NCBI RefSeq assembly: GCF_015355625.1
Contig: NZ_JACLAF010000010.1
Coordinates: forward strand, 124,001-188,000
DNA length: 64,000 bases
Source: Tamlana sp. I1
Lineage (GTDB): Bacteria > Bacteroidota > Bacteroidia > Flavobacteriales > Flavobacteriaceae
Direction of reading: 5' to 3'
Position numbers and translations under genes: made by a program. The notes below the pieces were generated by a model that saw only the letters and a list, made by a program, of their open reading frames with translations, ran no database searches and had not been told where the DNA came from. Below, in pieces: positions 56,072-61,390 of this stretch; within the stretch, counting starts at the first letter, position 1, and every line of letters starts with the position of its first letter.

Positions 56072-56163
56072 ATTATTCAATTTATAAAACAGCTTTAAAA
56101 CTGCAAAGATATTGGTTTACTTAAACATTGTACAAAGTAATTTGAACGAACCGTTATTATCTG

Positions 56164-56239
56164 CTTTTAAGCACATATTTAACATTATTAGCTTAAAAAC
56201 TAATATTTTAATTTATTAGCTTAAAAGATTATAATTTTG
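56164..56239 (+). promoter_or_regulatory. Promoter and repeated GCTTAAAAG sites upstream of the satD operon
   Basis: Three copies of GCTTAAAAG (one base varying) lie at 56164-56172 (inverted), 56191-56199 and 56219-56227, at 27-28 bp spacing. The last two sit in the longer direct repeat TATTAGCTTAAAA (56186-56198, 56214-56226). Four bp after the third copy is a -7 box, TAATTTTG (56232-56239). The array is where an operator would be, and SatD has its own HTH, so autoregulation is plausible. Confidence 0.55.
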
Positions 56240-56291
56240 TTATTCTGAATAAAAAACAATACATTTGATAGATAGATTAGTGCACATATAT

Positions 56292-56894
56292 ATGACAAGC
56301 ATAATAACAGGCGATATTATAAACTCAAAAGAAAGCTCTCCAAAAAATTGGTTAGAGCCACTAAAATTGGTACTAAATCACTTTGGAAACAGCCCTGCGA
56401 CATGGGAAATATTTAGAGGGGATAGTTTTCAATTGGAAGTTGCCCCAGAACAGGCTTTAGAGGCTTGTATATTGATAAAAGCTACCATAAAACAATTTAA
56501 AAATATTGATGTGAGGCTGGCTATTGGCATTGGCGAAAAATCGTTTGTTTCAGATAAAATAACAGAATCTAACGGAGAAGCTTTTATTAATTCGGGCGTT
56601 TGTTTTGAAGAGTTAAAAAAAACAACTTTAGCAGTAAAATCATCTTTTGAAACGTTTGACACCCCAATAAACATCATGTTAGAATTGGCGCAACTCACCA
56701 TAAATTATTGGTCGAGCACATCGGCTTTATTAATAAAAACAACCTTAGAACATCCTGATTTTAATCAGAGTGAACTAGCCAAAACTTTAGGAAAAACGCA
56801 AGGAAACATTAGTCAAGGCTTAAAACGCGCTGGTTTCGACGAACTTTTTAAACTTCTAAATTATTACAAAACCCAAATACAAACCATATGCTAA
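56292..56894 (+). CDS. SatD-family protein: nucleotide-cyclase/GGDEF-like domain plus helix-turn-helix
   Basis: This 200-residue protein starts MTSIITGDIINSKES and matches the SatD family. Residues 1-130 follow the outline of class III nucleotide cyclase palm domains: strand-Asp (IITGDIINS, D8), hairpin FRGDSFQLE (D44), VRLAIGIG (74-81) and the NGEAFINSG loop (94-102). Residues about 145-190 are a winged HTH (FNQSELAKTLGKTQGNISQG). I read it as a DNA-binding protein with a nucleotide-sensing or -making domain; catalysis is uncertain. The TTG at 56265 is an alternative start. The stop overlaps the DUF3307 gene by 7 nt. Confidence 0.8.
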   Translation: MTSIITGDIINSKESSPKNWLEPLKLVLNHFGNSPATWEIFRGDSFQLEVAPEQALEACILIKATIKQFKNIDVRLAIGIGEKSFVSDKITESNGEAFINSGVCFEELKKTTLAVKSSFETFDTPINIMLELAQLTINYWSSTSALLIKTTLEHPDFNQSELAKTLGKTQGNISQGLKRAGFDELFKLLNYYKTQIQTIC

Positions 56895-57604
56895 TTCTGG
56901 CACTTAAATTAATTTTAGCTCATCTTATTGGAGATTTTCTATTACAACCAAATAGCTGGGTAACACATAAAGAAACCTACAAACACAAATCGAAATTTCT
57001 ATATTGGCATATATTAGTGCAATTCTGTGCGCTTATTCTCGTACTTCAATTCAACTTTAAATATTGGGCAGGTATACTAATTATATCTATTTCGCATTAT
57101 ATTATTGATCTTATAAAACTGCATCTTAAATCGTCTGTGAATAACCGTTATTTATTTGCTTTAGATCAATTAGCACACCTCATCATCATTGCATTGGTTG
57201 TAAAAATCTACGAACCTTTTGCATTTAGTTTCAATGTGCTTTTTAATGCTAAAAACTTATTATTTATAACCAGTTTAATTTGTTTAACCAAGGTTTCATC
57301 AGTGATTATGAAAACCATCATATCCAAATGGGATTTATCCGAATTTACCGAAGCCTCTTCATTAGAAAATGCTGGCGCTTATATTGGCATTCTAGAACGC
57401 TTGTTTGTTTTCGCCTTTATTGTTACCAACCATTGGGAAGGTGTAGGCTTTTTAATTGCGGCAAAATCGGTATTTAGATTTGGAGATTTATCGAAAGCAA
57501 AAGACCGAAAACTTACAGAATACATATTAATAGGCACTTTGTTAAGCTTCGGATTAGCGATAATTTTCGCTTTGGGCTTCAATTATGTATTAAAGCTGGT
57601 TTAG
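56888..57604 (+). CDS. DUF3307 membrane protein, partner of SatD
   Basis: This 238-residue protein has six or seven membrane segments and the DUF3307 hallmarks: LAHLIGDFLLQPNSWV at the N-terminus, ISHYIIDLIKLHLK and FALDQLAHLIII, with repeated His and Asp inside the helices. The family has no assigned activity. It overlaps the SatD gene by 7 nt, and I recall this pair from other Bacteroidota, so they probably work together; the charged intramembrane residues suggest an enzyme or a metal site rather than a simple channel. Its stop overlaps the convergent DM13 gene end by 4 nt. Confidence 0.85.
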   Translation: MLILALKLILAHLIGDFLLQPNSWVTHKETYKHKSKFLYWHILVQFCALILVLQFNFKYWAGILIISISHYIIDLIKLHLKSSVNNRYLFALDQLAHLIIIALVVKIYEPFAFSFNVLFNAKNLLFITSLICLTKVSSVIMKTIISKWDLSEFTEASSLENAGAYIGILERLFVFAFIVTNHWEGVGFLIAAKSVFRFGDLSKAKDRKLTEYILIGTLLSFGLAIIFALGFNYVLKLV

Positions 57605-58029
57605 TTCATTTCTAGAATAGCGTTACCGAAATTAACACCAAAAGGCACACACCAAACAATGACATAATTATATTCTGAAAAATCTACATTATCTGGGATA
57701 TCATATTCGTATTCTCCGTCTAAACCTTTTAAAGCTCCTAAGGAAATATACTCGCTAGCGTTGGCATCGGTTGCTAAATAGAGTTCTAATGAAGGACCTT
57801 CATCAGACTTAAAATTAGAAAGCTTTAAAACCGTTTTTTCTTTATTTACAGAAGCTACGCCCGAGGTTGGGTGTGCTACAGAAATAAAATTCCCGCTATA
57901 CGTTGCTTCATCTTCCATATCCATGTTTTCCTCCATGGTCATGTCTTCTTCATTAATTGATGCATCATCACTTGAAGAACATGCAGTTAAACAAATAGCA
58001 CTAAAAAGAATTAAAAAATACGATTTCAT
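57601..58029 (-). CDS. DM13-domain lipoprotein
   Basis: This 142-residue protein has a lipoprotein signal, MKSYFLILFSAICLTAC, with the lipobox LTAC (Cys17), then a linker rich in Asp, Glu and Met (about residues 22-45) and a DM13 domain with GVASVNKEKTVLKLSNFKSD, LELYLATDANASEYISLG and the Cys motif YVIVWCVPFGVNFG. DM13 domains are predicted electron-transfer or redox modules because of that conserved Cys. A longer frame from 58134 overlaps ccsBA and is not needed. It lies just after ccsBA on the same strand. Confidence 0.88.
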   Translation of the reverse strand: MKSYFLILFSAICLTACSSSDDASINEEDMTMEENMDMEDEATYSGNFISVAHPTSGVASVNKEKTVLKLSNFKSDEGPSLELYLATDANASEYISLGALKGLDGEYEYDIPDNVDFSEYNYVIVWCVPFGVNFGNAILEMN

Positions 58030-58105: not shown

Positions 58106-61100
58106 TTACTTTTTATAATACTTTGAATAACCACGATAAGAGAAAAATCCTAAAATGGCAATAAGTCCGCAGGCAATAGCTATAAATTTCACGCTCACAA
58201 TTTGATCGCCACTGGCATAACTATGCAATCCAGCTAAGTAGAAATTCACTCCGAAATACGTCATTAAAATACTAGAAAATGCAACGATTGATAATAAGTT
58301 AAAAATCCATCGTCCGCGTAGTCCTGGCACCAAACGCATGTGAATTACAAAAGCATAAATCATAATACTAATAAGTGCCCAGGTTTCTTTAGGATCCCAG
58401 CCCCAATAGCGTCCCCAACTTTCATTAGCCCACATACCACCAAGAAAGTTTCCTATGGTAAGCATAACCAATCCAACGGTTAAAGCCATTTCAGTGATAA
58501 TAGTTAACTCTTTAATATTTAAATCCATTTTCACTTTATTGGCCTTATTGGTAAAAATCATTAAGAATAGCGACACAATCCCTAAAATCATACCCAAAGT
58601 AAATGGTCCGTAACTTGCTACAATAACCGCCACATGAATCATAAGCCAATAACTGTTTAAAACAGGTTGTAAATTAGCAATAGCAGGATCCATCCAGTTC
58701 CAATGTGCAATCATTAAAATCATAGCGGTTACAAACGCTCCTGCTGCAATAGTTAGGTTAGACGATTTTCTTTTAAGAACATCACCTATTGAAGCTGATA
58801 TAGTCGCTAAAACCCCTGAAGGTTTTACAGCAGACGCTTTTTTGCCCGCTTTACTTATTCCTGTGATTAAACCAAATAACATGGTTGACCATGCCACATA
58901 AATCATAGACTCGTAAGCATCACTCCAAGGTGCGTGACCAGAAATGTACCATCTTGCTATTAATCCTGCTGTATGTAATACAAACAGTCCTATTATTATG
59001 AATTTAAAAAAATTTATAGCGCCATTTACAAATTTTCGTTTATCATTAAAAATTTGAACAATTAGTAAGATAAACATTAGTGTTCCTGCATATAAATACC
59101 AACTAAACAACTTCTTAAAAATATCGTATTTATTATACAGTATTTCGGCATTTATCTTTTTATCACTAAGCATGACTTTGCCTCCGTAACGATGTTGTGT
59201 TTTTTCAAAAGCTGTTAAGAGTTTTTCAGATTCACTAAAATCGCCTGTTTTTTTGGCTTCATTTAAGGTAAACAAATAGGTTCTGAAACCATTTTTAACA
59301 AAATTACTGTAAAGCGAATCTTTTATAACCGACATATGCTGCGCATAATCGTAAGTAGAAATCCACTTATTATTTGGATCTTCTGGAATTGGGAATATTT
59401 TTAACGACATCCCTTCAATAGCATTATACAGTAAACTAACACGTTGGTCGGTTTCTTTAAATTCCTTTTGAAAACCAGTAGGCACTTGTGCTTTGTAAGC
59501 TTCATCTAAAAATGGGCCTAAAATATATTCGCCACGTTCTGTAAAGAAATCGGCTAAAGCCACATACTTTTCTTCTTTTGGAATATGAAGAAGATGTCTT
59601 ATCGAATCACCTTTTTTAGGCTTTAAATAAATGATTGGTACATTATACCAAAGCATCGGACTTTCTTGAATGGACAGGAATACTTGATTGGCATCAAAAT
59701 CGCCATAAGTATCACTTTTACTTAATTTACGAAGCATTTCTGATGCATAAGTATCTACAGGCATCATTCGCCCGCTTAAATCTTGAATCACTAAATTCCC
59801 AAATTTATCGGCGTGTGCTTTCGGTGTAATATTGCTATGTAGAATAGAATCTATTTGTGCTTTGGTTGGTTTAGAGTGGTTATGACCATCATTAGCCGAA
59901 TGTTCATGATCTTGTGCAAAACCTGTCAAACTTAAACACAGCACTAAAACTGTGAGTATTTTAGCTTTTTTAGCTTTAACTTTTTCCAACTGCTTTTTCA
60001 AATCTCCAAATCGAGAATGTTTACTAAACAAAATAGCCATTAATCCAAAATACAACATAAAATAGCCAATATAAGTAAGCATAGTCCCCCAATAATCATG
60101 GTTTACAGAAAGTACCGTCCCTTTTTCATCAGGATCGAAACTCGATTGAAAAAAGCGGTACCCGCCATGATCTAGAATATTATTCATGTAAATTTTATAG
60201 TCGAAGTCTTCTTGGTTTTTATCTATAACCGTAACTTCACTAGAATATGCCGAAAAACCACGTTCTGTTCCTGGGTAGCGCTCGGCTTCAAAATCGTTTA
60301 ATTTTATTGAAAAAGGCAATTCTAGAACTTTCGAACCGTATTTAAACGCGAAATCTAATCCGCCAACACTTATCTGTTTAAACATACCTCCACTTCCCTT
60401 ATTTCCAAGGATGCTAATACTTTTAGATTCACCGTTAGTGGTAACTCTAAGTTTAACTCCATCGGTACTGCTATTTTTAAGGATTTCTGAAGCTTTAACT
60501 ACATCAAACTCTCCTTTTACAACTGGCTTTGGAAATACCATCTGCATGTTTCCAATCACATATCTTGATCTTAAAACCAAAGGTTGTAAACTATCTTTTA
60601 CCAACTTACCTTGTGCCATGGTTGCCATGGTCATGTACTCGCCTTCAAAAGGAGAATTTATAGATAAATCGCCATTTTTATAGGTAATATTTATGGCGCC
60701 TTCTGTAGGTTTATTTAAAGCAATAAGAATTCCGTGAACGCTTTGTACTTCACCTACTTTAAGAAAATGATTGTGTGGTCCATTACTTCCTGCTTCTACT
60801 AACTTTAAATATTCTTCGCCATTTTCATTCGGAACGATATCTTCTTCAGCTCCAACAATAAACTTTTCTAATTCGATATTTACAGGTTGATTATGGTATT
60901 TTGTATCTATTTCAAAATGATTATTTAAACGTCCTGAAAAATCAACTTCACGTTCAATTGGCAAACGCTGTGGCACGCCATCAATTTTATAATCGCCATC
61001 GATGTAAGTTGTAATATATGTTTTTTGAGAAAGAAAGGTGTTTTCGGTGGCGCCTTCACGAATGGCCATCATACCTTCAAAACTAGCATAACGTGTAATA

Positions 61101-61390
61101 AACGCCCCAATTAGAATAAAAATAAAAGATAAATGCAAGATGAAAGTCGCCCATTTTTCCTTTTTATAGAGCCTGTATCTAAAAACATTTCCAACAAAAT
61201 TAATTACGAAAAACACCATAATGGCTTCAAACCACCATGCGTTGTAAATTAAATTTCGTGTATATGGCGTTGGTGATGTGTCTTGGCCGGCGTCTAAAAA
61301 AGTTCCTACTGCCATAGCTGCTGCAAATACTATGAATAAAACGGCTGTAAGTTTAGTTGAAAAGAAAATGTTAGCGAGTCTTTTTTGCAT
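58106..61390 (-). CDS. ccsBA: Cytochrome c biogenesis protein, ResB-CcsA fusion
   Basis: This 1094-residue membrane protein combines ResB (CcsB) and CcsA, the haem delivery and ligation machinery of system II. The N-terminal half has three helices and a long periplasmic part; around residues 490-510 there is a His-rich link (DHEHSANDGHNHSK); the middle has a second periplasmic domain; the C-terminal 300 residues carry the haem-handling WWD motif (WGRYWGWDPKETW, near residue 998) and flanking His. The fusion is common in Bacteroidota. It suggests that periplasmic c-type cytochromes are made. A DM13 redox lipoprotein follows. Confidence 0.95.
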   Translation of the reverse strand: MQKRLANIFFSTKLTAVLFIVFAAAMAVGTFLDAGQDTSPTPYTRNLIYNAWWFEAIMVFFVINFVGNVFRYRLYKKEKWATFILHLSFIFILIGAFITRYASFEGMMAIREGATENTFLSQKTYITTYIDGDYKIDGVPQRLPIEREVDFSGRLNNHFEIDTKYHNQPVNIELEKFIVGAEEDIVPNENGEEYLKLVEAGSNGPHNHFLKVGEVQSVHGILIALNKPTEGAINITYKNGDLSINSPFEGEYMTMATMAQGKLVKDSLQPLVLRSRYVIGNMQMVFPKPVVKGEFDVVKASEILKNSSTDGVKLRVTTNGESKSISILGNKGSGGMFKQISVGGLDFAFKYGSKVLELPFSIKLNDFEAERYPGTERGFSAYSSEVTVIDKNQEDFDYKIYMNNILDHGGYRFFQSSFDPDEKGTVLSVNHDYWGTMLTYIGYFMLYFGLMAILFSKHSRFGDLKKQLEKVKAKKAKILTVLVLCLSLTGFAQDHEHSANDGHNHSKPTKAQIDSILHSNITPKAHADKFGNLVIQDLSGRMMPVDTYASEMLRKLSKSDTYGDFDANQVFLSIQESPMLWYNVPIIYLKPKKGDSIRHLLHIPKEEKYVALADFFTERGEYILGPFLDEAYKAQVPTGFQKEFKETDQRVSLLYNAIEGMSLKIFPIPEDPNNKWISTYDYAQHMSVIKDSLYSNFVKNGFRTYLFTLNEAKKTGDFSESEKLLTAFEKTQHRYGGKVMLSDKKINAEILYNKYDIFKKLFSWYLYAGTLMFILLIVQIFNDKRKFVNGAINFFKFIIIGLFVLHTAGLIARWYISGHAPWSDAYESMIYVAWSTMLFGLITGISKAGKKASAVKPSGVLATISASIGDVLKRKSSNLTIAAGAFVTAMILMIAHWNWMDPAIANLQPVLNSYWLMIHVAVIVASYGPFTLGMILGIVSLFLMIFTNKANKVKMDLNIKELTIITEMALTVGLVMLTIGNFLGGMWANESWGRYWGWDPKETWALISIMIYAFVIHMRLVPGLRGRWIFNLLSIVAFSSILMTYFGVNFYLAGLHSYASGDQIVSVKFIAIACGLIAILGFFSYRGYSKYYKK

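Follow-up and report, generated by a model that had tools for sequence, protein, structure and literature searches.

In the window, by which we mean the whole stretch of 64,000 nucleotides that was analysed, the gene satD is followed on the same strand by a gene for a membrane protein of the DUF3307 family and is preceded by three inverted repeats (Table 1). The two reading frames overlap by seven bases, ATGCTAA, in keeping with the translational coupling that had been proposed for them. Upstream of satD lies mscL, in divergent orientation. Downstream of the DUF3307 gene, the minus strand carries a gene for a DM13-domain protein (57601–58029) and, also near the cassette, a gene for a 1094-aa protein (58106–61390) which we take to resemble a fused cytochrome c biogenesis factor.

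Table 1. Features of the satD–DUF3307 locus, in window coordinates.
Feature	Position	Strand	Remarks
satD	56292..56894 (ATG at 56292, TAA ending at 56894)	+	Predicted palm, residues 1–136; HTH, residues 142–199
DUF3307 membrane-protein gene	56888..57604	+	PF11750, 103.7 bits; overlaps satD
Operator copy 1, TATCTGCTTTTAAGCACATA	56158..56177		Degenerate inverted repeat; centre 28.0 bp from that of copy 2
Operator copy 2, TATTAGCTTAAAAACTAATA	56186..56205		Outer arms perfect
Operator copy 3, TATTAGCTTAAAAGATTATA	56214..56233		
Candidate −7 element, TAATTTTG	56232..56239	+	Overlaps copy 3 at its end; phase offset −2, shared with relatives
Candidate −7 element, TACATTTG	56260..56267	+	Exactly 28 bp beyond TAATTTTG
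Asp8 codon (ITGDIINS)	56313..56315	+	Presumed metal ligand 1; conserved in 178/181
Asp44 codon (FRGDSFQ)	56421..56423	+	Presumed metal ligand 2; conserved in 179/181
Recognition helix region, SatD residues 169–179 (TQGNISQGLKR)	56796..56828	+	From covariation; AF2 helix 170–179
Putative SatD specificity residues 169, 171, 172 and 175	Within the recognition helix region		From covariation

The window protein scores 26.8 bits against the Pfam model PF16264, under the cut-off of 29, and its name is therefore based not on its own score but on its homology to congeneric proteins above the cut-off (G291, G084 and G583 at 33.7–43 bits, and L031 at 37.3). The last of these is 87% identical to the window SatD.

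The original prediction had placed three copies of GCTTAAAAG upstream of satD at a spacing of 27–28 bp. There are three regularly spaced repeats; however, the proposed unit and the count of its copies were imprecise. Only two copies of GCTTAAAAG are exact, and these lie on opposite strands (56164–56172, minus; 56219–56227, plus), the middle site being GCTTAAAAA (56191–56199). As a repeat unit the 9-mer was rejected, being found in the window at chance level (40 matches with at most one mismatch, 40.2 expected). What is in fact repeated is an inverted repeat of 20 bp, here TATTAG-N8-CTAATA, present in three copies with centres 28.0 and 28.0 bp apart. At a lag of 28, the self-identity of the 150 nt upstream of satD is 0.557, compared with a shuffle mean of 0.331, and none of 500 shuffles reached the observed value. 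A score based on palindromes only (17 versus 15.0 for the window, reached by 4 of 100 shuffles) had too little power for individual AT-rich loci and often chose the wrong centres, and lag analysis was used in its place. Two units in register (at most three mismatches in 24 positions) occur once in the 4.04-Mb genome, at satD, and the reversed control pattern does not occur; single sites with at most two mismatches were matched 628 times genome-wide, against 726 matches to the reversed pattern, and are thus at control level. From this distribution of sites, SatD looks like a local regulator in the genome of the window.

It had been expected that satD genes of related genomes would share such upstream sites, and arrays indeed adjoin satD across the phylum and beyond. 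For 163 non-redundant loci, the mean excess self-identity of the 150 nt before satD was 0.131 ± 0.007 at lag 28 and 0.072 at lag 56, lag 29 coming next with 0.027, and the control region 400–550 nt upstream gave −0.019 at lag 28. The best lag between 15 and 49 was 28 in 113 loci and 29 in 26 (139/163 together), compared with 1 and 5 (6/163) after one dinucleotide shuffle per locus. The 24 of 163 loci without a 28/29-bp signal include a GC-rich family with a divergent SatD (L124, L125, L129–L131) as well as L109 and L193. Most loci combine outer TAT..ATA arms with an inner triplet that is specific to the clade (TAG, AAG, CGG, CTG, CGT, TCC and others); alternative outer arms are ATTCG (L052, L053, L062, L063, L142) and (A)TCAAC (L113, L114, L116). 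Three operator copies are present in 81 of 113 loci, four in 29, six in 2 and two in 1.

Plasmid loci and loci from a viral collection were scanned with a period left free between 20 and 40 and with 12 single-base shuffles per locus. The period was 28 or 29 in 10 of 13; eight of these ten beat all 12 of their own shuffles, and L207 (period 29) and L208 (28) fell below the largest shuffle. It was missing in L204, L209 and L214, among them the Sphingomonas cassette that lies beside a Pycsar set. The ten include the Vibrio array, which consists of three TTAGCC..GGCTAA sites, and two near-identical haloarchaeal loci with sites of the GTTCGCC..CGAAC type. The evidence for the period comes from the free scans (15–49 and 20–40), a choice between 28 and 29 only being no evidence for it.

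In two genomes whose satD has the matching half-site, TATCGG sites numbered 207 against 185 for the control (G375) and 261 against 181 (G428), which gave no clear regulon, and in three genomes of other types the numbers were 111/144, 179/175 and 43/29. The pattern in G428 was TATCGG-N8-CCGATA with at most two mismatches, compared with its reversed form, and possibly marks other targets. The excess may be noise, since G131, whose satD has a different half-site, also gave 43 against 29.

The link between array and protein was assessed by covariation. Locus pairs with palms 45–80% identical were used, and protein columns were ranked by how well they predict a shared half-site triplet; 17 of the 130 registered loci, some in poor register and six with other outer arms, were left out. 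Columns 175, 172, 169 and 171 took the first four places among the 200 of SatD, and each of them falls in the recognition helix region. When the DUF3307 columns were included as well, to serve as a control with the same ancestry (437 columns in all, 112 of the 113 loci having DUF3307), residue 175 still ranked first in each of three identity bands, and in the 0.6–0.85 band two positions from the first HTH helix, SatD residues 145 and 147, ranked high too. Glu175 goes with C at half-site position 4 in 30 of 31 loci and Gln175 with TAG or AAG in 31 of 38, and all six TCC loci carry Lys175. The correspondence is not one-to-one, as Lys175 is found with other triplets in 9 of 15 loci and Glu175 is absent from 18 of the 48 loci with C at position 4. 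Spanning more than 100 natural variants, this code from residue 175 to the half-site is a rare resource for work on specificity.

The array might instead be the target of another protein, or a feature that bends the promoter, with SatD sharing only its genomic place. This would agree with the AT-rich nature of the Bacteroidota sites, with the loss of loci with other outer arms to the covariation filter and with the computational origin of the case for SatD binding. However, the half-site tracks the SatD recognition helix above any DUF3307 column, and the array accompanies satD from phylum to phylum and in both domains, so we consider this explanation very improbable. Since the half-site covaries with the recognition helix, SatD almost certainly binds the sites of its own promoter array, as far as sequence comparison can indicate, probably as a dimer; the earlier proposal that SatD controls its own operon is thereby strongly supported.

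The position of the promoter relative to the array points in the same direction. Exact matches to TANNTTTG, which we take to be the Bacteroidota −7 motif, were counted in the interval that opens 10 nt upstream of where the last operator copy ends and closes at the start codon; 44 of 113 loci have one or more. Of the 52 occurrences, 46 lie at −4 to −2 from an operator end, modulo the period. When the leaders were shuffled 500 times, the mean was 4.2 occurrences, 1.8 of them in phase, and the largest values were 12 and 6. For the 28 loci with leaders of at least 40 nt, 28 of 30 occurrences were in phase, compared with 0.3 after shuffling. In the window, the −7 box noted earlier at the last site was recovered as TAATTTTG, which abuts the third copy, and the promoter is locked to the phase of the array, since the two −7 candidates are 28 bp apart. 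TACATTTG is repeated in several near relatives, as seen by eye in the upstream sequences, and the TTG of TAATTTTG may instead serve as the −33 element of the −7 candidate that follows. That the array overlaps the −7 element in a fixed phase suggests that the promoter is occluded, and in this way repressed. Thus SatD probably represses its own promoter, to judge from this geometry, the alternative being an activator that acts from the array sites. The distance from the last operator to the ATG is only 0–10 nt in 48 of 113 loci, so that satD transcripts may be leaderless there.

Residues 1–136 of SatD are predicted to form a palm of the nucleotide-cyclase/Cas10/GGDEF type (AF2, pLDDT 95), and the best matches of the palm model among solved structures belong to this superfamily. 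The resemblance to such palms, which had been read from the order of four motifs (IITGDIINS, FRGDSFQLE, VRLAIGIG, NGEAFINSG, all of them present), is therefore upheld by structure prediction. The same is true of the HTH that had been placed after the palm: it has only sub-threshold matches in Pfam, yet it is clear in the AF2 model, with helices at 142–153, 159–166 and 170–179. The two Asp residues, placed as metal ligands by motif, are conserved as had been anticipated, D8 in 178 and D44 in 179 of 181 SatD loci. Among 12 aligned SatDs (Bacteroidota, Proteobacteria, one haloarchaeon and one contig from a viral collection) only G7, D8, S12, G43, D44, Q47 and R75 are invariant.

With the two metal-binding Asp kept in the modelled palm, SatD probably binds a nucleotide and may convert it, the chemistry being an inference. 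In predicted fold and in the order of its metal-Asp motifs, it is like the class III nucleotidyl cyclases, GGDEF proteins, the Cas10 palm and GTP cyclohydrolase III. It differs in having RGDSF rather than GGDEF, no conserved class III Asn/Arg and an HTH that would read its own promoter. The GG[DE]EF signature is absent from SatD, and where S45 is replaced by E (25/181) the first Gly of GGDEF is still lacking. With respect to class III cyclases, the predicted palm fold and the two metal Asp are present; however, the transition-state Asn/Arg is not conserved at SatD positions 99 and 103, the register presumably being that of the AC motif. In the 179 SatDs other than those of L109 and L193, V, I or Q prevails at position 99, and position 103 is E in 91 and R in 45. 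For this reason we do not assign SatD to the class III cyclases. Mycobacterial cyclase-HTH regulators such as Rv0386 also combine a cyclase domain and an HTH in one chain; an ATPase domain lies between the two in the Rv0386 type only, and we know of no such operator arrays for these regulators.

The window DUF3307 protein matches PF11750 over residues 6–124 with 103.7 bits, well above the cut-off of 23. The original prediction had described a polytopic protein with His and Asp inside membrane helices. H12, D16, H70, D74, D93 and H97 do fall in predicted helices and do not vary among the 26 sequences aligned, whereas the transmembrane nature of these helices was judged by eye, from hydrophobicity. 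Across domains, H12, D16 and H97 are found in 10 of 10 sequences, and H70, D74 and D93 in nearly all. These conserved residues make it plausible that the protein has a site for a metal or for protons within the membrane. The predicted structure (pLDDT 87, pTM 0.61) gave no fold match among solved structures.

PHROG 2470, a phage membrane-protein family, matches only the N-terminal half of the DUF3307 protein (residues 2–106), as it does for the E. coli and haloarchaeal copies, and is a possible phage-borne counterpart of DUF3307. A tblastn search of phages with the window DUF3307 and the Enterobacter kobei SatD gave no match. Beside divergent SatDs (L219, L222–L224, L226 and L227; L134 and L135) there is a DUF3307 variant of which chiefly the C-terminal half is recognised, the N-terminal half being either replaced or too divergent.

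The locus set, 202 loci less 21 repeats, was chosen by the presence of SatD (181/181), and for this reason we make no claim about an asymmetry of breakage between toxin and antitoxin. DUF3307 follows SatD in 178 of the 181 loci and is whole and in a single frame in 170. The three loci without DUF3307 are L109, L183 and L193. In L109 (G315) and L193 (G150) both Asp are lost (K/N and E/N) and there is no array, the rest of SatD being kept; L183 retains D8 and D44 and the 28/29-bp signal. In a sample of 299 genomes from the family, 163 have SatD, as do 75 of 296 sampled from the phylum; DUF3307 was found in 85 of those 296. Among the 11 genomes with DUF3307 and no SatD match, seven have a divergent SatD adjoining it and four have none that was detected (L218, L220, L221 and L225, of which L221 is a fragment).

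The pair is carried on plasmids in Vibrio, Enterobacter, Klebsiella, Escherichia, Pseudomonas, Pseudoalteromonas, Salinivibrio, Sphingomonas and two haloarchaea, and, within the Bacteroidota, in Segatella. In Agrobacterium, SatD is accompanied by a short hypothetical protein, to which the DUF3307 match corresponds. On the 3,770-bp E. coli plasmid pEC34A, the only annotated features besides the pair are Rop, MobA and a single small hypothetical ORF, in a gene table reported to be incomplete, and five K. pneumoniae plasmids equal in length to pEC34A match both genes. Megablast of the K. pneumoniae plasmid cassette against E. coli genomes gave no match. The chromosomal places of the Bacteroidota cassettes are stable within genus groups and differ between groups; of 36 loci, 12 lie beside mscL, 8 at a second place and 5 at a third.

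According to extracts of PMC11323703, satD of S. pyogenes, which we link to the present gene by name, occurs in 178 of 249 genomes, yet is essential in the transposon studies compared; the same extracts tie the sat genes of S. mutans to acid stress. Acid tolerance is also the context of the sat genes in extracts of PMC10326533, and those of PMC12005413 call the S. suis satD product a 'DNA-binding protein'. DUF3307 yielded one mention in a search listing (PMC8504454, in extract). The literature searched, which held few subscription papers and in part first-ranked matches, contained no molecular function for SatD or DUF3307, no operator array or nucleotide fold for either and no statement on DUF3307 beside streptococcal satD.

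The best explanation of the locus, to which we assign a probability of about 0.5, is a self-regulating two-gene module in which SatD restrains DUF3307. SatD would bind the array of 20-bp inverted repeats at its own promoter, with their spacing of 28 (or 29) bp, and repress this promoter through the phase-locked overlap with the −7 element. Its palm would bind, and possibly convert, a nucleotide; the state of this nucleotide, or the product formed, would act together with repression to hold the co-translated DUF3307 protein in check. If SatD or the nucleotide were lost, DUF3307 would be freed to act on the membrane. We infer, as had the original prediction, that SatD may answer to its membrane partner or signal through it, and would narrow this to a probable restraint of the partner. 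Restraint is suggested by the shape of the operon, by carriage on 3.8-kb plasmids with little besides the pair, by the two neighbouring defence systems described below and by the report of a satD that is accessory yet essential.

Autoregulated toxin–antitoxin operons have a DNA-binding first gene, an overlapping second gene, palindromes over the promoter and plasmid carriage, and the cassette is like them in all four respects; binding of the first gene product to operators in the shared promoter is, for SatD, a computational result. The cassette differs from them in the enzyme-like palm of SatD and in DUF3307 being a many-helix membrane protein, the toxicity of which is conjectural. Another parallel is Panoptes, where, in the extracts of PMC12657230, a small palm enzyme (mCpol) constitutively restrains a toxic membrane protein (2TM-beta). 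Both systems pair a small palm enzyme with a membrane protein; the present one differs in the HTH of SatD, in the operator array and in the larger, multi-helix DUF3307. That SatD restrains DUF3307 in the manner of an antitoxin or of the inhibitory signalling in Panoptes is an analogy for which we see an even chance; it is favoured because the S. pyogenes satD, accessory yet essential in the extracts cited, looks like an antidote, and because of the Panoptes precedent. The loss of D8, D44 and the array in two of the three SatDs without DUF3307 also speaks for restraint. Against it, the third of these (L183) keeps both Asp and the signal, DUF3307 occurs without a detected SatD in 4 of 11 genomes checked, which is awkward for a toxin, and the stable chromosomal places fit ordinary vertical genes. 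The module as a whole is also weakened by the 24 of 163 loci and the 3 of 13 plasmid or viral-collection loci that have no 28/29-bp signal, by the imperfect correspondence between residue 175 and half-site and by the missing fold match for DUF3307.

These places also suit the main rival of restraint, an operon for stress or homeostasis in which SatD senses a nucleotide (for instance the ATP/GTP state) and tunes a non-toxic membrane transporter, channel or enzyme, with no part in addiction or defence. The stable location within genus groups, beside mscL in the clade of the window, the presence of SatD in 163 of 299 genomes of the family and the conserved His/Asp in the DUF3307 helices, which suggest a transport or metal site, all agree with such a role, as do the family name, 'secretion and acid tolerance', and the link of the S. 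mutans sat genes to acid stress in the extracts of PMC11323703. However, the operon would then have to be patchy in the phylum (75/296), to ride on tiny plasmids with little else annotated, to lose the Asp pair in two of three SatDs without DUF3307 and to be accessory yet essential in the same extracts. We consider it possible, at a clearly lower probability than restraint.

With the present results, two poorly known families become a single testable module. If SatD does restrain DUF3307, this could explain the accessory yet essential satD of S. pyogenes and could add a palm-based addiction or defence module common to Bacteria and to plasmids of Archaea. A more specific version of restraint is a mobile inhibitory-signalling cassette of a new kind, in bacteria and on archaeal plasmids, in which SatD would be both the repressor that reads the operators and the palm that makes or holds a nucleotide silencing DUF3307, so that loss of SatD or of the nucleotide, on plasmid loss or phage attack, releases the effector. 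We offer it tentatively, as rather unlikely in this full form. Were it true, the phage copies of the DUF3307 N-terminal half in PHROG 2470 would be candidate blockers.

Twelve plasmid neighbourhoods, one of them unannotated, were viewed, and PADLOC was run on chosen neighbours in six. Two, to be taken as cases and not as a statistic, hold a clear defence system. On the Enterobacter plasmid, the Gabija genes GajA (E 3.7e-235) and GajB (1.5e-232) stop ∼2 kb short of the cassette, and an IS3 transposase lies in the interval. On the Sphingomonas plasmid, a Pycsar set (PycC, 4.3e-183; 2TM effector; E2) adjoins the cassette, which itself has no 28/29-bp array and a SatD that matches no Pfam model. 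These neighbours, the anatomy of a palm with a membrane protein and the PHROG 2470 match to the DUF3307 N-terminal half would all suit an activated defence resembling Pycsar, in which phage infection would activate the SatD palm, the palm product would open the DUF3307 effector and the HTH would keep prior expression low. However, neither window protein, SatD or DUF3307, has a PADLOC match up to E 10, the class III Asn/Arg (at the positions we presume for them) is not conserved in SatD, and an essential satD would be left unexplained. We regard activated defence as unlikely.

The SatD of pEC34A matches only HTH-bearing models in PADLOC, the best at 8.8e-5. Four further PADLOC matches were not counted as defence systems: an ABC-F protein in L212 (mad3, 1.1e-52), an ImmA/IrrE protein in L214 (RmrA, 3.3e-8), a HEPN protein in L215 (PDC-S09, 4.6e-8) and a DUF4365 protein in L210 (PDC-M02A, 1.1e-4). 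An annotated DUF4365 protein lies near the cassette on both the Enterobacter (L210, 18500–22360) and the Agrobacterium (L215, 1089–2879) plasmids.
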